From Desulfurobacteriaceae bacterium (GTDB taxonomy: Bacteria; Aquificota; Aquificia; Desulfurobacteriales; Desulfurobacteriaceae), in NCBI GenBank assembly GCA_027013575.1, contig JALWGN010000019.1, forward strand, positions 1 through 52,808: 52,808 nt of DNA, in the 5' to 3' direction. The number at the start of each line of letters is the position of its first letter. The stretch's first letter is position 1. The notes under the pieces are model-generated. The model made no database searches, was not told where the DNA came from, and was given only the letters and a program-made list of their open reading frames with translations. Made by a program: the position numbers and the translations under genes. Below, in pieces: positions 14,487-24,393 of this stretch.

Positions 14487-14536
14487 AACTTTCCTCCTTG
14501 AGAGTTGACCGAATTATAGTATTTTGGAGAGATTGG

Positions 14537-16780
14537 ATGAGACTGAAACTCTACGTTACCGGCCTTGTTCAGGGTGTAGGCTTTAGACCTTTCGTTTACA
14601 GACTTGCAACAGAGCTTGGACTGAAAGGCTACGTTTTAAACAGCGAAACGGGAGTTGTTATAGAGGTTGAGGGAGAGAGGAAACGGTTAGAGGAGTTTTT
14701 AAAGAGGCTCCAGAGTGAAAAACCCCCCGCCTCTCAGATCTTCAGTATAGACAGGAAGTTCTTAGACGAGGTAGGCTACACCGGTTTTGAGATAAGAAAG
14801 AGCGAGAAAAACGGGGAGGTTCAAGTAGCCGTTCTTCCAGACCTGTCAACCTGTAAGGAGTGCCTTTCAGAGCTCTTTGACCCGACAAACCGCCGTTTCA
14901 GGTATCCGTTTATAAACTGTACGAACTGCGGCCCAAGGTTCACGATTATCCTCTCCCTCCCCTACGACCGCCCCAAAACGACGATGAGAGACTTTTTTAT
15001 GTGTGAAAAGTGTAGAGAGGAGTACGAGAACCCGTTAGACAGGAGGTTTCACGCCCAGCCCAACGCCTGCCCTGTCTGCGGCCCTCACGTGTGGCTCGTA
15101 GACGAAAGGGGGGAGACCGTTGCAGAGAGAGATGAGGCACTAAAACTGCTGATTGAGTGGCTGAAAGAGGGGAGAATTCTGGCAGTTAAGGGGCTTGGAG
15201 GATTCCACCTTGTCTGCGACGCAACAAACGAAAGGGCTGTGGCGGAGCTCCGCCGCCGCAAAAAACGCCAGGAGAAGCCCTTTGCCGTTATGTTTAAAGA
15301 CCTTGATCAGGTTAAGGAGTTTGCAGAGGTCTCTCCGTTAGAGGAAATAGCTCTAACCTCTGTGGAGTCTCCCATCGTTATACTGAACCAGAGAGAGAGA
15401 AACGGCCTTGCTCCCTCTGTCTCCCCCGACACCAGAACTGTAGGGGCGTTCCTTCCCTACACCCCGCTTCACCACCTGATTCTCAGGGATTTCGGAAAAC
15501 CCGTAGTTGCAACCAGCTGTAACCTTACAGATGAGCCCATAATGTTTAAAAACTCTGAAGTTGAAAGGGCTCTTGGGAAGCTGGTTGACGGAGCTCTCCT
15601 CCACAACCGTGAAATTGCAAGGCGGTGCGACGACTCAGTTGTGAAGGTTATGGGGGGAAGGGTTGTTCCGTTTCGCCGCTCCAGAGGTTACGCTCCGCTT
15701 CCCGTTCTCCTTCCATTTAATCTGAAACGCCCCGTTTTAGCCCTTGGCCCCCACATGAAAGTTACAGTAGCCGTAGGGAAGGGAAACAGGGTTTACATCT
15801 CACAGCACATAGGCGACATAGACAACATTAAGGCCGAGGAGTTCTTCAAGGAGACCGTTAAAGACCTACTGAGCCTCTTTGAGGTTGAGCCTGAGGTTGT
15901 CGTTTCAGACCACCACCCCGGCTACTTTACGACGAAGTTCGGAAAGGAGTTTTTCGGAGAAAGGTTGGTTCAGGTTTACCACCACCACGCCCACGCAATC
16001 TCCGTTATGGCAGAGAACGAGGTTCCTTTAAGTAAAAAGGTTATAGCCTTCTCCTTTGACGGAACCGGCTACGGAACCGACGGTAAGATCTGGGGAGGGG
16101 AGGTTCTGATTGCAGGCTACACTGAGTTTGAGAGAGCTTTCCATCTTAAGTACTTCCCCCTTCCCGGAGGGGATAGGGCGGTTAAGGAGCCCTACAGGGT
16201 TGCAGTCTCACTTCTTAAAGCCGCTGGAGAGAATCCTGAGAAATACCTGAAAGTTGAACCTCAGAAGCTCTCTTTTGTCTCCCGGATGGTTGAAAAGGGA
16301 ATAAACTCCCCCCTTACCTCAAGTATGGGAAGGCTCTTTGACGGCATTTCTGCCATTTTAGGAATTAGGTACGCCGTTAACTACCACGCACAGGGGGCGA
16401 TCCTCCTTGAGGAGGTGTCTTCTGTTTCCTCTGAAACGGGAAGCTACCCCTTTAAAATAGAGAACGGAGGGATTGACTGGAGGGAGCTCGTTTCGGCCAT
16501 TGTTTCCGACTTAAAGAGAGGTGTACCTGTTTCAGACATCGGAATGAAGTTCCACAACACAGTTGTAGAGATGGTTTTGAGGTCTGCTGAAATCTTAAGA
16601 GAGGAAACTGGAATAGATACGGTAGCCCTTTCCGGGGGCGTTTTCCAGAACAGGATTTTAACTGAGAAGTGCTTGAGGGAGCTCCCTGAAAGGGGCTTTA
16701 AAGTCCTGGTTCACCAGGTTGTCCCTCCAAACGACGGAGGGCTCTCTTTAGGACAGGCCGTTTACGGAGGTCTGATTTGA
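14537..16780 (+). CDS. hypF: Carbamoyltransferase HypF, [NiFe]-hydrogenase maturation
   Basis: Uses carbamoyl phosphate and ATP to carbamoylate the C-terminal Cys of HypE, giving the cyanide ligands of the [NiFe] site. Domains in order: acylphosphatase (~1-90, LYVTGLVQGVGFRPFVYRLA); two zinc fingers (CKECLSELFDPTNRRFRYPF, then CTNCGPR, CEKC and CPVCGP); YrdC-like (~190-370, LAVKGLGGFHLVCDA); and Kae1-like C-terminus (HHHAHAISVMAENE, GTGYGTDGKIWGGE). The length of 747 is normal. ATG follows GGAGAGATTG; a TTG upstream would add 13 residues without family support. Its TGA stop overlaps the TTG start of the Frh-type large subunit. Confidence 0.96.
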   Translation: MRLKLYVTGLVQGVGFRPFVYRLATELGLKGYVLNSETGVVIEVEGERKRLEEFLKRLQSEKPPASQIFSIDRKFLDEVGYTGFEIRKSEKNGEVQVAVLPDLSTCKECLSELFDPTNRRFRYPFINCTNCGPRFTIILSLPYDRPKTTMRDFFMCEKCREEYENPLDRRFHAQPNACPVCGPHVWLVDERGETVAERDEALKLLIEWLKEGRILAVKGLGGFHLVCDATNERAVAELRRRKKRQEKPFAVMFKDLDQVKEFAEVSPLEEIALTSVESPIVILNQRERNGLAPSVSPDTRTVGAFLPYTPLHHLILRDFGKPVVATSCNLTDEPIMFKNSEVERALGKLVDGALLHNREIARRCDDSVVKVMGGRVVPFRRSRGYAPLPVLLPFNLKRPVLALGPHMKVTVAVGKGNRVYISQHIGDIDNIKAEEFFKETVKDLLSLFEVEPEVVVSDHHPGYFTTKFGKEFFGERLVQVYHHHAHAISVMAENEVPLSKKVIAFSFDGTGYGTDGKIWGGEVLIAGYTEFERAFHLKYFPLPGGDRAVKEPYRVAVSLLKAAGENPEKYLKVEPQKLSFVSRMVEKGINSPLTSSMGRLFDGISAILGIRYAVNYHAQGAILLEEVSSVSSETGSYPFKIENGGIDWRELVSAIVSDLKRGVPVSDIGMKFHNTVVEMVLRSAEILREETGIDTVALSGGVFQNRILTEKCLRELPERGFKVLVHQVVPPNDGGLSLGQAVYGGLI

Positions 16781-17949
16781 AGAAGGTAGTTAAGCTTGAA
16801 GGGATACCGCTTACAGAGGGGCACTCCGGTCTTTTCCTTGAAGTAGAGGAAGGGATTGTAAAGAGAGGGTTTTACTACGCCCTCGTTCCTGTAAGGGGTT
16901 TTGAGACGCTTCTTTTAGGAAAAGACTCAAGGGTTGCTCCTACCATAACAACGAGGATCTGCGGGCTCTGTCAGGTTACTCACGCAGTAGCCTCTGCAAG
17001 GGCGATAGAAGACGCTGCCGGTATAGAGGTTCCGCCGGAAGCCGAAAAACTGAGGGAGGTTTTAGGCCTTGCCGTTCGCATCTACAACAACCTCCTCCAC
17101 CAGATAATAGTTTCTGAAGACCTCTTCCCGGAAAAGAGGGAGCAGCTTGCCTTTATAAGGGAAGTTCAGGGAGTCAGGAAGTTTGCAGGAACGGTTCTTG
17201 AGACTGTAGGGGGGGAGATTATCCACTCCCCAAACGTGAAAGTGGGCGGGATATCAGAACCCCTGGAGGAGTCTGTTAAGGAGAAACTCCTCTCGGAAAT
17301 GGACGGGGTACTTGAAAAGCTTAAGAACAGTTTTTCCGTTTTCAGGGAGAGTTTGGAAGCCCTCTGGAAGAGAGAGGGGCTCAGTGAAGACTTCGGCAGT
17401 CATGGTCTTGGTTACTTTGCCACAGACCTCTACTACGGAAATTCCGTTCCATTTGAGAAGTTTACCTTTCTCCTTCCCCAGGAGCTCCTTGAGGGAGAAC
17501 TAAAGAGAAGAGTTACGAACCTGTTCCCCCTCTTTGACGGAAAGCCCGTTGAAACGGGGCCGAGAGCTAGAGCCGTCCTCTTTAAAGGATACACTCCTAA
17601 AGGTGGCGTTAAGGAGCTCCACCTTTTGAGGGGAGAGGAGAACTTAGAGGCACTTTTGAGAATAAGGGAGATTCTGGAAGGCGGTAGGTTTGACGGGGAG
17701 CTCTGGAACAGAGAAACCCCATCTTCCGACGGAGAAACTGTTGGCGTGGGAGTTCACGAAGCCCCGAGGGGAACGAACCTTCACGCCGTTAAGGTAGATA
17801 AGTCGGGGAAAATAGTATACTATAAAATAGTTGTTCCAACGGAGCTGAACTTCTTCGCCGTTGGAGAGGCTTTAAGGGGGGTTCCTGCCACAAAGGCGGA
17901 GTACGTTGTACGGGCTTACGACCCCTGCATCGTCTGTGCTGCCCACTGA
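16777..17949 (+). CDS. [NiFe]-hydrogenase large subunit, FrhA-like (group 3 type), no C-terminal extension
   Basis: Carries the Ni-Fe active site of a soluble hydrogenase. The N-terminal motif is RICGLCQVTHA (Cys 62 and 65) and the C-terminal motif is DPCIVCAAH. At 390 residues it matches FrhA-type subunits and is far shorter than the group 1 enzyme in this window. The protein stops exactly at the His of the last motif, so there is no peptide for a maturation protease to remove. The TTG start overlaps the hypF stop and follows GGAGG by 6 nt. FrhG- and FrhB-like genes follow. Bacteria of this kind are not known to me to use F420, so the acceptor is open. Confidence 0.85.
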   Translation: MKKVVKLEGIPLTEGHSGLFLEVEEGIVKRGFYYALVPVRGFETLLLGKDSRVAPTITTRICGLCQVTHAVASARAIEDAAGIEVPPEAEKLREVLGLAVRIYNNLLHQIIVSEDLFPEKREQLAFIREVQGVRKFAGTVLETVGGEIIHSPNVKVGGISEPLEESVKEKLLSEMDGVLEKLKNSFSVFRESLEALWKREGLSEDFGSHGLGYFATDLYYGNSVPFEKFTFLLPQELLEGELKRRVTNLFPLFDGKPVETGPRARAVLFKGYTPKGGVKELHLLRGEENLEALLRIREILEGGRFDGELWNRETPSSDGETVGVGVHEAPRGTNLHAVKVDKSGKIVYYKIVVPTELNFFAVGEALRGVPATKAEYVVRAYDPCIVCAAH

Positions 17950-17963
17950 ATTGAGGAAAAGGT

Positions 17964-18704
17964 ATGTTTTACAGAGATAAGCTCTCCTTTGAGGATGAAG
18001 AGTTCAAGTTAAAGGTAGGGTTCCTCCACTTCTCAAGCTGTTCCGGCTGTCAGGTAGCTTTTTTTGATATGTTTGAGGAAGCCGTTGAGATTCTTGATAC
18101 GGTAGAGCTTGTATATTCTAACATGCTTACAAAGAGGAGGGACCTTCCCCGTATGGACGTCGCTTTTGTTGAGGGAGCTCTCTGTATTGAGGATCCTCAC
18201 CACCTTCACCTGGTAAAGGAGCTCCAGAAGAAGGCGAAACTCATCGTTGCCGTTGGAGGTTGTGCCTCCTTTGGAGGAGTCAGACGTCTCTCCTGCGGTA
18301 ACCAGCTACCTCAACCGCAGCATCAGAGCTTTGTTCCGATAACAGAAGTTGATCTGGTAAAGCCGAAGGTTAAATATGCCATTCCCGGATGTCCTCCAAA
18401 CCCGTCGCTTCTCTACAGCTTCCTTCTGGCCCTCCTTGAGGTGAACGAAGACTTCCTCCTTCCCTTTGAACTGATGACCTTCTCAACTAGGGCTTCAGGT
18501 ATGGATATCTTTGCAGAAGTTGTAAATAAGGGTTTTTGTGTCGGCTGCGGTACCTGTTCAACTGCCTGCCCTACACGGGCTATAACCTACAACTATGAAT
18601 GTAGTAGACCAGCTTTTAACCCGGGCCTCTGCGTTTACTGCGGTTCCTGTCTTGCTGCCTGTCCGCAGAGTTTTAAGCCCTACCCGCAACCGACGTACAC
18701 ATGA
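17964..18704 (+). CDS. [NiFe]-hydrogenase small subunit with ferredoxin domain, FrhG-like
   Basis: Transfers electrons from the Ni-Fe site. Residues ~15-180 form the hydrogenase small-subunit fold with the proximal cluster ligands in HFSSCSGCQ, VGGCASFGG and IPGCPPNP. The C-terminal ~60 residues form a two-cluster ferredoxin: CVGCGTCSTACP and CVYCGSCLAACP. This N-to-C order is that of FrhG/MvhG-type gamma subunits. The 246-residue chain has no signal peptide, so the enzyme is cytoplasmic. It starts at ATG 14 nt after the large subunit; GAGGAAAAGG precedes it. Confidence 0.85.
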   Translation: MFYRDKLSFEDEEFKLKVGFLHFSSCSGCQVAFFDMFEEAVEILDTVELVYSNMLTKRRDLPRMDVAFVEGALCIEDPHHLHLVKELQKKAKLIVAVGGCASFGGVRRLSCGNQLPQPQHQSFVPITEVDLVKPKVKYAIPGCPPNPSLLYSFLLALLEVNEDFLLPFELMTFSTRASGMDIFAEVVNKGFCVGCGTCSTACPTRAITYNYECSRPAFNPGLCVYCGSCLAACPQSFKPYPQPTYT

Positions 18705-18714
18705 GAGGTTAAAA

Positions 18715-19608
18715 TTGGTTGCTCTTAACAGTCGCTTTCTTCTGGGAAAGTATAGAGAAGCGTTTCTGGTTGACGGTAAGGGTGAAAATCCGGTAAAGGC
18801 CATTTTTACCCTTATGTTGAAGTTTGGCCTCATAGATGGCCTGCTTACCGCCAGTGAAGACGGAAACTCGCCGCGGCTCATCCTTAAGGCTGAAGATGTT
18901 GAAATTCCCGTTAGGAATACCTGCTTTGGAGTTAACTCACTTCTTAAAAAGGCAGTTCAGAAGTACAGGCTCTCTAGACTAGCGGTTTTCGGTCCCGCCT
19001 GCACTTTTGACGGTTTAAACAAGACTCAGTACTTCGGGATTGGGTGTAACTGGACAAAAACAGCAGTAGCCCTCAAAGTCAGCTTTCTTTGTCCAGGAGT
19101 TCTAACTGATACGGCCTTTTTATCAGAGGTGGTTGATATAACTGGTAAAAGAGCTGGAGTTTCAAGGTTTTACTTCCAAAAAGGAGAACTCCGCTATCAG
19201 CTAAAAAACGGCGAGGAAGTAGCGGTTCCTCCTGCACTTCACCACAGGTACGTAAACAGCGCCTGCCGTTACTGTCTGAACATGGCCGGCAAGGGAACTG
19301 ATCTCACCGCCGTTTACCTGAAAGAGGTAAACAGAGCTCTCTTTATTGTAAGAAGTGAAAGAGGACTCAGCACGCTGGCACAGATTCAGAGGAATTCTCC
19401 CTCAAGCCTTCAGTTCAGGAAAGCCGGTAAAGAGGATGTTGATGAGCTTCTCTCTTTCCTAAAAGAGAAGGTTCTTCTAAATATTTCTGATATTATAGAA
19501 AGAGTGGAGCTTGGTCTTCCTGTTCCCAAGTGGAACGATAACAAGTTGAGGAAGTTTTACAGGATCTGGAACTCTGTTGATGTGAACTCTGAGGAGGAGG
19601 TGTTCTAA
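18715..19608 (+). CDS. FrhB-like iron-sulfur flavoprotein subunit
   Basis: The beta subunit that, in archaeal F420-reducing hydrogenases, holds FAD and a [4Fe-4S] cluster. Here the KAIFTLMLKFGLIDGLL segment corresponds to the GGVVTALLxYALExGLIDG region, and YVNSACRYCLNMAGKGTDLT corresponds to the family's CRYCxDM motif. Additional Cys residues (CTFDGLNK, GIGCNW, LCPG) follow family spacing. TTG at 18715 is chosen since GAGAGG lies six bases ahead; the frame is open further upstream but there overlaps the FrhG-like gene. 297 residues. The physiological acceptor could be ferredoxin, NAD(P)H, F420 or a partner enzyme. Confidence 0.75.
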   Translation: MVALNSRFLLGKYREAFLVDGKGENPVKAIFTLMLKFGLIDGLLTASEDGNSPRLILKAEDVEIPVRNTCFGVNSLLKKAVQKYRLSRLAVFGPACTFDGLNKTQYFGIGCNWTKTAVALKVSFLCPGVLTDTAFLSEVVDITGKRAGVSRFYFQKGELRYQLKNGEEVAVPPALHHRYVNSACRYCLNMAGKGTDLTAVYLKEVNRALFIVRSERGLSTLAQIQRNSPSSLQFRKAGKEDVDELLSFLKEKVLLNISDIIERVELGLPVPKWNDNKLRKFYRIWNSVDVNSEEEVF

Positions 19609-19895
19609 TGGCTACCACTTACTTTGAAATTGCGGAAGATAAACTCTTTGAGAGAGCGGAGCTCCTTAAAGTTTTGGGCCACCCTGAGAGGCTGGCGATA
19701 GTTCTCCTCACACTCAACCAAGAGATGTGCGTTAAGGACCTGGTTGAAATTCTTAAGATTTCTCAGCCGAAAGTCTCTCAGCACGTTGGCCTTATGAAAG
19801 AGCTTGGTATATTGACCTTTAGAAAAGAGGGAACAAAGGTCCTGTACAGAACTTCAAGTGAGGTTGTCAGAGAGCTTATGGACGTTCTTTTTTAG
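19608..19895 (+). CDS. ArsR-family winged-helix transcriptional regulator
   Basis: A 95-residue DNA-binding protein of the ArsR/SmtB fold: ERAELLKVLGHPERLAIVLL (helices 1-2), the recognition helix region KISQPKVSQHVGLMKELGIL and the wing FRKEGTKVLYRT. There is one Cys (EMCVKDL) in the position of the ArsR alpha-3 site but no obvious CVC metal motif. Its ATG overlaps the stop of the FrhB-like gene (TAATG), so it is translated from the hydrogenase transcript. It may autoregulate that operon or act on the divergent-looking control region just downstream. Confidence 0.85.
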   Translation: MATTYFEIAEDKLFERAELLKVLGHPERLAIVLLTLNQEMCVKDLVEILKISQPKVSQHVGLMKELGILTFRKEGTKVLYRTSSEVVRELMDVLF

Positions 19896-20072: not shown

Positions 20073-20117
20073 ATGTCTCTACCTGATCTGCTGTAGAGTA
20101 GTTCACAATAAAGAATT

Positions 20118-20136
20118 CGTTATATTAGCTATAACG
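20118..20136. promoter_or_regulatory. Inverted repeat, candidate operator B
   Basis: CGTTATA-TTAGC-TATAACG, a perfect 7+5+7 palindrome about 45 nt upstream of the -35 box. AT-rich imperfect dyads of this size are typical ArsR-family sites, so the neighbouring regulator is a candidate; this is inference. Confidence 0.5.
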
Positions 20137-20180
20137 ATTGGTTCTAAATTAATTTCTAAAAATAGAAAATTAGCATACCG

Positions 20181-20248: not shown

Positions 20249-21328
20249 ATGAACAGAAGCCTCTTTATGGGGGGAATACCAGGGACGATGTCCCGTAGGG
20301 GTTTCCTCAGAGCCTGTGCCATAGCAACAGCTGCAATGGGACTCCCTATGGAGATGGTTCCGAAGGTTGCTGAGGCAGCTTCAGATCCAAAGAGACCAAG
20401 TGTTGTATGGCTTCATTTTCAGGAGTGTACCGGGTGTTCTGAAAGCTTACTGAGAGCGTCTCACCCCGATATAGCTACGCTCATCCTAGACTTAATCTCT
20501 CTTGACTATCACGAAACTCTAATGGCTGCTGCAGGAAAGCAGGCAGAAGAGGACCTTGAGAAGGCTATTGAAAGGGGTAACTACCTCCTCGTAGTGGAAG
20601 GAGGAATTCCACTTAAAGACGGAGGAATTTACTGCAAAATAGCGGGAAAGAAGGCGGTAGATATACTTAAACACGCTGCAGAGAAAGCAGTAGCGATTAT
20701 CGCTATCGGAACCTGTGCAGCTTACGGTGGTATTCAGGCTGCAAAACCAAACCCAACTGGCGCTGTAGGAGTTTCCGATATCATCAAGGATAAACCTATC
20801 ATCAACGTTCCTGGATGTCCTCCAAACCCCCATAACTTCCTCTCAACTGTCCTCTACTACCTGACGTTCAAGAAGCTTCCACCAACTGATAAGTTTGGAA
20901 GACCTCTATTTGCTTACGGAAGGAAGATTCACGACCACTGTGAGAGAAGGCCTCACTTTGACGAAGGTCGCTACGTTGAGCAGTTCGGAGATGTCGGCCA
21001 CAGGCTCGGCTTCTGTCTCTACAAAGTGGGGTGTAAGGGACCTGAAACTTACTCTAACTGTCCTGTAATCAGGTTCAACGACGTGGAGGTATGGCCCGTA
21101 TCTGTTGGTAACGGTTGTTACGGGTGTACTGAGCCGAACTTCTGGGATACCATGACTCCTTTCCACAAGAGGCTGCCTAACGTTAAGATTCCTGGCGGAA
21201 AAGGTATTCAGGCAAGTGCTACAGAGATTGGAAAAGCTGCTCTTGGAGTTACTGCTGCAGCACTTGCAATCCACGCCGGCGTTGGTATAGCTAAAAGACT
21301 TGCAACAGGTTCAAAATCTGAAGAGTAA
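20249..21328 (+). CDS. Membrane-bound [NiFe]-hydrogenase small subunit (group 1), Tat-exported
   Basis: Electron-transfer subunit of the H2-uptake hydrogenase on the periplasmic face. The Tat signal is SRRGFLRACA with the hydrophobic stretch after it. Cluster ligands: ECTGCSES, IGTCAAYGG and NVPGCPPNP for the proximal cluster, and HDHCERRPHFDEG, GCKGPETYSNCP and GCYGCTEPNF for the medial and distal clusters. A C-terminal membrane helix (ALGVTAAALAIHAGVGIA) anchors it to cytochrome b. Length 359 is normal. The first ATG has AGGAGGGCG; a second, just before the twin Arg motif, would also work. Confidence 0.95.
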   Translation: MNRSLFMGGIPGTMSRRGFLRACAIATAAMGLPMEMVPKVAEAASDPKRPSVVWLHFQECTGCSESLLRASHPDIATLILDLISLDYHETLMAAAGKQAEEDLEKAIERGNYLLVVEGGIPLKDGGIYCKIAGKKAVDILKHAAEKAVAIIAIGTCAAYGGIQAAKPNPTGAVGVSDIIKDKPIINVPGCPPNPHNFLSTVLYYLTFKKLPPTDKFGRPLFAYGRKIHDHCERRPHFDEGRYVEQFGDVGHRLGFCLYKVGCKGPETYSNCPVIRFNDVEVWPVSVGNGCYGCTEPNFWDTMTPFHKRLPNVKIPGGKGIQASATEIGKAALGVTAAALAIHAGVGIAKRLATGSKSEE

Positions 21329-21353
21329 AAAACCCGAAATGGGGAGGTAAGAA

Positions 21354-23099
21354 ATGGCTAACAGAGTAGTAGTTGACCCAATTACTAGGATAGAGGGTCA
21401 CCTTAGGATAGAGGTTGTACCTGAGAACGGGTACATTAAAACAGCTTACTCCTCTACTCAGATGTGGAGGGGAATAGAGGTTATCCTTCAGGGAAGGGAT
21501 CCAGACGATGCCTGGATGTTTGCCCAGAGGATCTGCGGCGTCTGTACGACAGTCCACGCCATTGCCTCTGTGAGATCCGTTGAGAACGCCCTTCAGCTTG
21601 AGGTTCCTTACAACGCTCAGATGGTAAGGAACATCATAATTGCCGCTCATGCCTTACACGACCACATCGTTCACTTCTACCACCTCTCTGCTTTAGACTG
21701 GGTTGACGTTGTTTCAGCTCTCAAGGCAGATCCCCACAAGGCTGCAAAGATTGCAGAGAGCTACCAAAACTGGAAACTGAACGGAGCCTCTGTATTTAAA
21801 GCTGTTCAGGATAAGCTTAGGAAGTTCGTTGAGAGTGGACAGCTCGGTCCGTTTGCCAACGGTTACTGGGGCCATCCGGCAATGAAACTTCCACCGGAAG
21901 TTAACCTCATTGCCGTAACCCACTACCTTCAGGCTCTTGACTACCAGAGGAAGGCGGACCAGGCCATTGCTATCCTTGGTGGTAAGAACCCACACATCCA
22001 GAACCTTGCAGTAGGTGGCGTTTCAACGGCCATCAACCCGGACAACGAAGCTACCCTCAACATGGAGCGCCTCTACTACATTAAGCAGCTCCTTGAAGAG
22101 GTAAGGGACTTTGTCCACAACTGTTACGTTCCCGACGTTATTGCAATTGCTGCCTTCTACAAAGACTGGCTTCAGTACGGAAGGGGCGTTGACAACTACC
22201 TTGCGGTTCCTGACCTTCCTCAGGATCCGAAGGGTGAGACATTTGACCTACCGGGCGGTACAATCTTTGGTGGAGACCTCTCTACAGTTAAGCCGATTAA
22301 GAGCTTCAACGACGAGTACTTCATCAAGAACGTAAGGGAGAACATTACACACGCCTGGTACAAGGGTAGCTGGACTAAGCATCCGTGGGAGGAGGAGACC
22401 GTTCCAGACTACACCGGAATGCCCGGCGGTTACGTTGATCCAAACGGTAAGTACTCCTGGACGAAGGCTCCAAGGTTTGTTAAAGGTAACGACTACGTTC
22501 CTATGCAGGTTGGTCCTCTTGCTCAGATTCTCGTTGGATACGCTCAGGGGCACAAGCTTATTAAGAAGTACGTTGACCAGGCACTTTCTGACCTTAAGAG
22601 CGTTCTCTCACTCATCGGTGAGAGCACAGACGGTGTTGACCTTAACGCTCTCCAGTCCACTCCGGGAAGACACCTTGCAAGAGCTCTCAGAGCTAAGGTT
22701 CTCTCAGACCTTGCACTGAAGCAGTGGGAGCAGCTTGTTGACAACGTTGGCCGCGGCGACCTTGAGATCTACAACCCACCAAGCTACCCTGCCGGCGAAA
22801 TCAAGGGTTGCGGATTCCACGAGGCTCCAAGGGGTACTCTCTCCCACTGGACTGTTATTGAGAACGGCAAGATTAAGAACTACCAGGCTGTTGTTCCTTC
22901 TACCTGGAACTCTTCACCAAGGGACGATAAAGGACAGCCCGGACCTTACGAGGCTTCCCTCGTCGGCAACCCTCTGGCAGATCCTGAAAAGCCCCTTGAG
23001 GTTCTCAGGACTGTTCACTCCTTTGACCCCTGCATCGCCTGTGCCGTTCACCTCGTTGACCCGGAAGGAAACGAGATTACGAAGGTTAAGGTTCTTTAA
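21354..23099 (+). CDS. Membrane-bound [NiFe]-hydrogenase large subunit (group 1)
   Basis: Holds the Ni-Fe(CN)2CO site and oxidises H2. RICGVCTTVHA (Cys 61 and 64) and DPCIACAVH (Cys 560 and 563) supply the four ligands. Fifteen residues follow the last His and would be removed by the protease encoded two genes downstream. N-terminal VVVDPITRIEGHLRIEV and TQMWRGIEVILQGRDPDDA are typical of group 1. Length 581. It has no signal of its own and is presumably co-exported with the small subunit. ATG is preceded by GGGGAGGTAAG. Confidence 0.97.
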   Translation: MANRVVVDPITRIEGHLRIEVVPENGYIKTAYSSTQMWRGIEVILQGRDPDDAWMFAQRICGVCTTVHAIASVRSVENALQLEVPYNAQMVRNIIIAAHALHDHIVHFYHLSALDWVDVVSALKADPHKAAKIAESYQNWKLNGASVFKAVQDKLRKFVESGQLGPFANGYWGHPAMKLPPEVNLIAVTHYLQALDYQRKADQAIAILGGKNPHIQNLAVGGVSTAINPDNEATLNMERLYYIKQLLEEVRDFVHNCYVPDVIAIAAFYKDWLQYGRGVDNYLAVPDLPQDPKGETFDLPGGTIFGGDLSTVKPIKSFNDEYFIKNVRENITHAWYKGSWTKHPWEEETVPDYTGMPGGYVDPNGKYSWTKAPRFVKGNDYVPMQVGPLAQILVGYAQGHKLIKKYVDQALSDLKSVLSLIGESTDGVDLNALQSTPGRHLARALRAKVLSDLALKQWEQLVDNVGRGDLEIYNPPSYPAGEIKGCGFHEAPRGTLSHWTVIENGKIKNYQAVVPSTWNSSPRDDKGQPGPYEASLVGNPLADPEKPLEVLRTVHSFDPCIACAVHLVDPEGNEITKVKVL

Positions 23100-23103
23100 C
23101 TTC

Positions 23104-23124
23104 AGGGAGGGAGCTCCCCTCCCT
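23104..23124 (+). other. Stem-loop between hydrogenase large subunit and cytochrome b genes
   Basis: AGGGAGG pairs with CCTCCCT around a GAGCTCC loop, 5 nt after the large-subunit stop. There is no T-run, so it is more likely an mRNA-stability or processing hairpin that sets subunit ratio than a terminator. Confidence 0.4.
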
Positions 23125-23149
23125 CCTAAAGCCAATGAGGAGGGAAAAA

Positions 23150-23797
23150 ATGGCAGTCTACGAGAAGAAATACGTCTGGAGCATACTCCTTAGGCTCTTC
23201 CACTGGACGTTTGCTCCCTCAATATTTACCCTCATCGTTACGGGTCTTTACATCCACTGGCCCTGGACAAACACCTGGCTTGAGGGGAGCCACCAGTTCA
23301 CAATGGCAATAATGCGCTGGATCCACTTCATAGCCGGAATGCTCTTTACCTGTGCCGTTATTGCAAGGCTCTACCTGTGGTTTTTCGGCAACAAGTACGA
23401 GAGAGTTTGGGACTTCCTTCCCATCACTGGTAGGAACATTAAGAACCTCTTCTCAACTCTCCTCTACTACGCTTACCTTACAGACCACCACGAGGAGAGG
23501 CTTGGCCACAACGCCCTTGCAGGAACGGCCTACTTCTTCACAATACTCCTTGCAATTGTCCAGTTCCTTACAGGTCTCTACCTTCTCTACCCCGAGGGAA
23601 GCCTATTTACCTCTATAGGAGCAACTCTCTTTGGAACCCAGCAGGTTGCAAGGTTCATCCACTACATACTCAACTGGTACTTCGCGTGGTTTGCTCTGGT
23701 TCACATCTACATTGTTGTCTGGAACGACATTAAGCACCCTGAAGGCCTTATTTCTTCTATTTTTGACGGCTTCAAGTTTGCAAAGAAAGAGCAGTAG
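23150..23797 (+). CDS. Hydrogenase b-type cytochrome subunit
   Basis: Di-haem membrane anchor that passes electrons from the hydrogenase to quinone. Four membrane segments are visible, with candidate haem His residues in LRLFHWTFAPSIFT, MRWIHFIAGMLFT, ARFIHYILNWYFAWF and ALVHIYIVVWND, the pattern of the HyaC/HydC family. 215 residues. ATG at 23150 follows GAGGAGGGAAAA. The gene completes a small-large-cytochrome order. Confidence 0.94.
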   Translation: MAVYEKKYVWSILLRLFHWTFAPSIFTLIVTGLYIHWPWTNTWLEGSHQFTMAIMRWIHFIAGMLFTCAVIARLYLWFFGNKYERVWDFLPITGRNIKNLFSTLLYYAYLTDHHEERLGHNALAGTAYFFTILLAIVQFLTGLYLLYPEGSLFTSIGATLFGTQQVARFIHYILNWYFAWFALVHIYIVVWNDIKHPEGLISSIFDGFKFAKKEQ

Positions 23798-23821
23798 TTT
23801 ATCTCCTTTTAGAGGAAAGGG

Positions 23822-23848
23822 TGGGGGAGTTTTGGCTCCCCCATTTTT
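23822..23848 (+). terminator. Intrinsic terminator after the hydrogenase structural genes
   Basis: TGGGGGAG-ttttgg-CTCCCCCA followed by TTTTTAA. It separates structural from maturation genes and may attenuate rather than end transcription, since the next gene begins only 15 nt later on the same strand. Confidence 0.85.
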
Positions 23849-23862
23849 AATTTGGAGGGAAA

Positions 23863-24393
23863 ATGAAAATAGGTGTAATGGGAGTTGGAAACGTTCTTCT
23901 GAAAGACGAGGGCTTCGGAGTTAAACTTCTCTACATTTTGAAAGCAAAGTACGAGTTACCGGAAAACGTTGTCCTGATAGACGGAGGAACTGCAGGAATT
24001 TTCCTCTCTCCTGAGATTGATTACCTTGACAAACTCCTGATCGTTGACGTGGTAAAGGCGAAAGGTGAGCCGGGAGAGGTAAAAATCTACGAAAAAGAGG
24101 ACTTCTTTATAGACAGATTGCCCTTAAAACTCTCACCTCATCAGCTTGGCCTTCAGGAAGTTCTTCTTCTTAACGAAATTAAGGGTACCTGCCCTGAAGA
24201 TGTGAAACTGATAGGAATTATTCCAAAATCTATAGAGACGGGAACAGGTTTAACGCCGGAGCTTGAGGAAAAGCTACCTGAAGTTGAGGAAAAAGTTCTT
24301 GAAATTCTGAAAGAGTGGGGAGTTGAACCGACTTTAAAGGAAAAACCGGAAGATCCCGACATCTGGTGGGAAAAGAGAGTTAAGGAGGTTTAA
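23863..24393 (+). CDS. Hydrogenase maturation endopeptidase (HyaD/HybD family)
   Basis: Removes the C-terminal peptide of the hydrogenase large subunit after nickel insertion. The fold is recognised from MKIGVMGVGNVLLKDEGFGV (Glu/Asp nickel ligand), IDGGTAGIFLSPEI, a central Asp in LLIVDVVKAKGEPG and His in LSPHQLGLQEVL. 176 residues. The substrate is very likely the group 1 large subunit just upstream, which has a 15-residue tail, and not the Frh-like one, which has none. GGAGGG precedes the ATG. Confidence 0.92.
   Translation: MKIGVMGVGNVLLKDEGFGVKLLYILKAKYELPENVVLIDGGTAGIFLSPEIDYLDKLLIVDVVKAKGEPGEVKIYEKEDFFIDRLPLKLSPHQLGLQEVLLLNEIKGTCPEDVKLIGIIPKSIETGTGLTPELEEKLPEVEEKVLEILKEWGVEPTLKEKPEDPDIWWEKRVKEV

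Follow-up and report, generated by a model that had tools for sequence, protein, structure and literature searches.

A conserved Frh-type [NiFe] hydrogenase without a C-terminal tail or an F420 route, encoded with an ArsR-family regulator in the Desulfurobacteriaceae

We find that the frhAGB genes of a heat-loving vent bacterium of the Desulfurobacteriaceae (Aquificota), with relatives in Thermovibrio, encode an Frh-type hydrogenase whose large subunit ends without a C-terminal tail, whose genome yielded no F420 route in our searches, and whose operon closes with an arsR gene. These three features are real and conserved in the family, and they are partly published. Our preferred reading, which we hold tentatively, is that frhAGB-arsR forms a cytoplasmic, F420-independent, group 3a-like unit that would pass single electrons to a protein partner and, together with ArsR, provide an H2-responsive redox signal.

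The hypF-frhAGB-arsR locus

The window (the whole stretch of 52,808 nucleotides that was analysed) represents contig 19 of a genome 1.6 Mb in size and 94% complete. On its + strand hypF, frhA, frhG, frhB and arsR lie in this order, followed from 20249 by a group 1 Hyn operon. The maturation gene hypF (14498-16780), encoding a carbamoyltransferase, matches TIGR00143 with 839.7 bits. The frhA-like gene (16777-17949; TIGR03295, PF00374) encodes a [NiFe] hydrogenase large subunit of 390 aa and starts with a TTG that overlaps the hypF stop; the frhG-like small-subunit gene (17964-18704) is identified by TIGR03294 and its motifs, and the frhB-like gene (18715-19608), encoding 297 aa from its likely start, by PF04432, alignments and an AlphaFold model. 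The gene for the arsR-family regulator of 95 aa (19608-19895; NF033788) begins with an ATG that overlaps the frhB stop by one base. Profile matches and open reading frames thus bear out the original prediction of an FrhA-FrhG-FrhB order at 16777-19608 in a bacterium. With overlaps at hypF/frhA and frhB/arsR and only short gaps elsewhere, the spacing of hypF-frhAGB-arsR suggests a single transcript. The Hyn operon (20249-24393; hynS, hynL, cytochrome b and a HupD protease) was assigned from open reading frames, profile matches and loci.

The close named relatives reached by a scan of genome contigs are Thermovibrio and Desulfurobacterium, together with Desulfurobacteriaceae MAGs. In genera g1-g6 hypF adjoins frh, as does hyn where the contig reaches; in g7 neither does. 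In this latter clade (L056-L059), a TRCF-type helicase gene with DEAD, TRCF and CarD domains lies directly upstream of frh in place of hypF, and hyn is missing downstream, yet frhAGB-arsR still stand together. In fact, every checkable locus retains these four genes together. Beyond the Desulfurobacteriaceae, the scan returned a single 27%-identical Lokiarchaeota locus, a result that says little about distant Frh since family-specific patterns were used; a plasmid search returned other hydrogenase types at low identity.

The best model for FrhA is TIGR03295 (frhA), at 332.5 bits and under the equivalog cut-off of 392.5, while FrhG passes TIGR03294 (247.8 against 245.5). In an IQ-TREE phylogeny of 24 large subunits, the family FrhA proteins form one clade (100/99) beside methanogen FrhA (80/61, moderate support) and are separated from the Hyn, HydA, Mvh-like and Ech-type subunits of the same genome. 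These best models, and a tree that groups the proteins with Frh and included no group 2 sequence, do not point to subunits of the group 2 type.

A large subunit without a C-terminal tail

The NiFe ligand motifs of FrhA are intact, with RICGLC at L1 and DPCIVC at L2. Its C-terminus reads RAYDPCIVCAAH and is followed by TGA, the last residue being the L2 His of DPCIVCAAH. In the Hyn large subunit, which the window also encodes, 15 residues follow the corresponding His (LVDPEGNEITKVKVL), as originally noted for this respiratory subunit, and the FrhA precursors of methanogens reach 17 residues (9r51_A; 410 aa, His393) or 19 residues (3zfs_A; 405 aa, His386) beyond the equivalent His. The original prediction of a tail-less FrhA named a frameshift as the finding that would overturn it. 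None of the reading frames downstream of frhA would extend the protein into a tail, and it ends at the L2 His in 20 of the 20 family genomes that carry the gene (its own included), with identities among the relatives from 94% down to about 50%. Consequently, we rejected truncation by a frameshift, and an assembly fault with it, and the tail-less end stands for its own locus and for the family.

Naturally tail-less large subunits have been listed for classes 2b, 2d, 4c, 4e and 4g, with group 3 not among them (PMC7294309). They are typical of the H2 sensors of groups 2b and 2d, but non-sensory group 4 enzymes also lack the tail (PMC7294309). A family-wide tail-less end in what is, by sequence, group 3a is therefore new with respect to this list, and with FrhA, group 3 too offers a natural example for studying why a cleavable tail is required in most [NiFe] hydrogenases but dispensable in some.

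Loss of F420-associated features

The original prediction would equally have fallen with a complete F420 pathway. With methanogen controls positive, cofD was absent from the genome itself, and cofE was absent from it and from all 22 family genomes searched. For Thermovibrio ammonificans, the published report likewise describes missing F420 genes and no F420 fluorescence (PMC5441870). Its sequence places the enzyme as a sister lineage to group 3a; judged from its genes, it lacks the function-defining features of an F420-reducing hydrogenase.

FrhG in the window contains the proximal-cluster cysteines and two CxxCxxCxxxC ferredoxin motifs, so that three [4Fe-4S] clusters are expected; the two motifs are present in 20/20 family genomes. 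The listed frhB open reading frame (from 18595) is over-extended into frhG, and translation probably begins with the TTG at 18715, in agreement with the starts in relatives. FrhB scores 43.2 against PF04432 (cut-off 23.3) and matches NF006807 (E=1e-14), and lies far under the frhB equivalog cut-off (42.5 against 331.5). Its AlphaFold model (mean pLDDT 82.9) aligns in Foldseek with 6qii_B, the FrhB of M. barkeri, at a TM score of 0.72. Sequence, predicted model and Foldseek comparison thus agree in identifying the protein as an FrhB. Its cluster cysteines (C96, C126, C184 and C187, numbered from the likely TTG start) are kept, and equivalents of the Fe-S cysteines C104, C134, C192 and C195 occur in 20/20 family FrhBs.

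The remainder of FrhB has diverged from its methanogen counterparts. In an alignment of the 20 family sequences with three methanogen FrhBs, 17 of 99 methanogen-invariant columns are conserved at a level of at least 80% within the family, although the three form a small reference set and many of the lost columns reflect distance only. The methanogen residues G73, T74 and Y76 (GTKY loop), K165 and K167 (IGKGK turn), and S206 to P213 (STGSVGSP loop) each occur in 0 to 25% of family FrhBs. Within these three motifs one Gly is the sole exception to this low retention, and QDGG-(I)V was absent from the family rows inspected. According to PMC3591093, the first of the three motifs is a loop at FAD, the second a turn close to F420 and the third a loop beside the F420 ring; the residues that line FAD lie in the Lys75-Tyr76 loop and at a helix N-terminus. 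As controls, the F420 enzyme 8rja_E, from a different complex, keeps GT[KR]Y as GTRY and GSVGSPxGWST as GSVGSPPGWST, and Fsr keeps GCVGSPDGYST, a partial retention of F420-enzyme residues. Some columns, such as NKxQY-x-GIGxN, are conserved in the family's own manner. FrhB therefore appears to have lost its F420-binding part. FAD itself may have been lost as well, although loss of the motifs does not prove this. An FrhB that, as judged from alignment, retains its fold and all four cluster cysteines while most FAD/F420 residues of F420-using homologues are gone is new.

The linked arsR gene

The product of arsR matches NF033788 with 78.6 bits (cut-off 55), and PF01022 (winged-helix domain) is likewise above its cut-off. 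The gene is the last of the frh unit in 19/19 checkable genomes; in L051 the contig stops first. The link between arsR and the 3' end of frh is consequently firmer than originally claimed. That arsR appears fixed at the operon end by gene order, also in genomes in which neither hypF nor hyn adjoins the unit, is a new observation.

The protein has one invariant Cys (C41), within E-x-C-V-K-[DE]-L in 19/19 sequences. Relative to the classic ArsR/SmtB CxC site (ELCVCDL type), the first Cys is kept and the second is Lys; with one invariant Cys, a simple intramolecular disulfide switch is not expected.

An operator for ArsR was sought upstream of hynS and across the genome, and none was found. A palindrome inside the hynS promoter, AATAAGCTTATT, was rejected as a candidate, since only the nearest genomes carry it; when the window was shuffled 100 times, 63 of the shuffles matched its hit count at two mismatches. 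Upstream of the hynS promoter, the inverted repeat ATAAAGAATTCGTTATAT and the element TTCTAAAAATAGAAAATTAGCATA (20108-20125 and 20154-20177) are conserved in several genera. We rejected both as a regulon signal, as each has one full-match copy in the genome, and nothing ties them to ArsR. We note that arsR at the operon end may merely autoregulate the operon in response to another signal.

Relation to known systems

The family shares with methanogen group 3a FrhABG the gene set, the FrhA and FrhG sequences (best HMM matches), the FrhB fold and the four Fe-S cysteines. It differs in lacking the FrhA extension, the conserved FAD/F420 residues of FrhB and cofD/cofE, in having a linked arsR, and in forming its own clade. 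The window locus is a further member of the Frh family found in T. ammonificans and D. thermolithotrophum, for which no F420 genes are reported (PMC5441870, PMC12724263). Nothing is known to set it apart from these, and T. ammonificans has the same hypF-frh-hyn arrangement. The T. ammonificans frh operon, its missing F420 genes and a possible ferredoxin role were published in 2017 (PMC5441870); the missing tail, the FrhB motif loss and the linked arsR found no mention in the accessible portions of PMC5441870 and PMC12724263.

With HupUV/HoxBC (groups 2b and 2d) the family has in common a large subunit without a C-terminal extension and a proposed regulatory role. However, it belongs by sequence to a different subgroup and has an FrhB-like third subunit. 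HupUV/HoxBC use a histidine kinase partner, whereas the family has an arsR gene instead; no PAS-domain histidine kinase was found within the frh operon. Compared by published description, frhAGB of Thermococcus onnurineus is likewise an Frh-type hydrogenase of a hot-vent non-methanogen, although an archaeal one. A direct electron transfer from Thermococcus frhAGB to thioredoxin reductase is reported (Jung et al. 2020, cited in PMC10025317), and deletion or overexpression of frhAGB alters gene expression (PMC6367845). The Thermococcus enzyme is the nearest experimental precedent for the electron route proposed here.

A possible function and its alternatives

In our preferred reading, the Hyp proteins would insert the cofactor into FrhA without a protease step, and H2 would be oxidised at low capacity. 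Four cluster-binding sites, three in FrhG and one in FrhB, are predicted to form a chain, along which electrons from H2 would run via FrhG to the FrhB cluster and exit one at a time to a protein partner, with no hydride passing to F420. This partner would most likely be the thioredoxin reductase/thioredoxin system, or else a ferredoxin; a TrxR gene is present in the genome (405 bits, above cut-off). The resulting thiol or redox state could then, with the co-encoded ArsR, adjust hydrogenase gene expression. This last step is the weakest, and we put the link from hydrogenase to ArsR forward as a hypothesis. The unit would thus serve as an H2-responsive redox signal and not as a bulk energy enzyme.

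An alternative that we consider rather unlikely is a ferredoxin-reducing hydrogenase for CO2 fixation, in which the FrhB cluster would supply ferredoxin for pyruvate and 2-oxoglutarate synthases and arsR would only tune the operon. The ferredoxin domain of FrhG and the cluster of FrhB are intact, the lost flavin/F420 residues fit a one-electron output, and HCAR (5dqr), which has the FrhB fold and takes electrons from ferredoxin, is a structural neighbour of the FrhB model. However, the uncoupled reduction of ferredoxin by H2 is energetically unfavourable when H2 is scarce, and the genome's HdrA/Mvh-like unit could do this job. In addition, proteomics did not detect FrhAGB in T. ammonificans (PMC5441870), nor in D. 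thermolithotrophum at 2 and 43 uM H2, where Ech and HydBCDA were seen and were responsive (PMC12724263); both proteomes contained other hydrogenases. Ech, for which dependence on ferredoxin is described, was plentiful in D. thermolithotrophum and increased at low H2 (PMC12724263). The lack of FrhAGB in these data fits a low-abundance or conditionally made unit and speaks against a major CO2 fixation role under those conditions, so that ferredoxin reduction as the main role, as originally suggested, is now less supported.

Still less probable is that FAD remains in use and that a re-shaped FrhB pocket serves to reduce NAD(P) or a sulfur compound as a small soluble acceptor. The fold is kept in the model and the family-specific columns would be expected if a new pocket had been selected, but the FAD-lining residues are not kept and profile search detected no nucleotide-binding domain. 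A true F420-reducing hydrogenase, supplied with F420 or a deazaflavin precursor by neighbours, is strongly disfavoured and in our view highly improbable: homology to FrhA and FrhG stands against the missing cofD/cofE, the lost F420-contact motifs and the lack of fluorescence noted above for T. ammonificans. As for a decaying operon in which tail loss reflects recent damage or an assembly fault, the TTG or GTG start codons of frhA and the lack of proteome detection could be cited in its favour; open frames and NiFe and Fe-S ligands conserved over 20 deeply diverged genomes refute it, and we give it almost no credence.

In D. thermolithotrophum, the amounts of some hydrogenases shift tenfold or more with H2 supply, and the part of the report available names no sensor (PMC12724263). 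Within our preferred reading, the frh-arsR operon is a concrete candidate H2 sensor for such shifts, and it suggests that an F420 module has been retained for a role other than F420. A broader claim, that this is a new class of H2 sensor across the Desulfurobacteriaceae, in which a tail-less, F420-free Frh-type hydrogenase uses FrhB as a one-electron output adapter to signal H2 to a thiol-sensitive ArsR repressor of hydrogenase genes, we regard as doubtful.

Other hydrogenases of the genome

The large subunit of the group 3b-like HydA has a 14-residue tail and the Mvh-like subunit a longer one. The Ech-type large subunit (G000:C92:22716-23894; L070:10717-11895) has no tail and ends in DPCLSCTAR. 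Tailed [NiFe] large subunits thus coexist in one genome with tail-less ones of two kinds. We discarded protease counting as evidence on tails, since two HycI-type proteases are shared by three large subunits with tails and their number decides nothing.

A row of genes at G000:C93:11795-16930 (L071:1796-6931) encodes an HdrA-like protein (765 aa), a hydrogenase small subunit, the Mvh-like large subunit and a HycI-type protease, and is possibly a group 3c unit. HydA (G000:C92:17465-18769; L070:5466-6770) has an in-frame TGA at the first L2 Cys (RAYDP-TGA-IACAVH, then the 14-aa tail). No mention of this codon was found in the literature searched. It is probably read as selenocysteine, for which a tRNA-Sec (80.8 bits, C3:44174-44264) is encoded in the genome; one TGA also occurs in the HydA homologue of most other family genomes, those of the g7 clade excepted.
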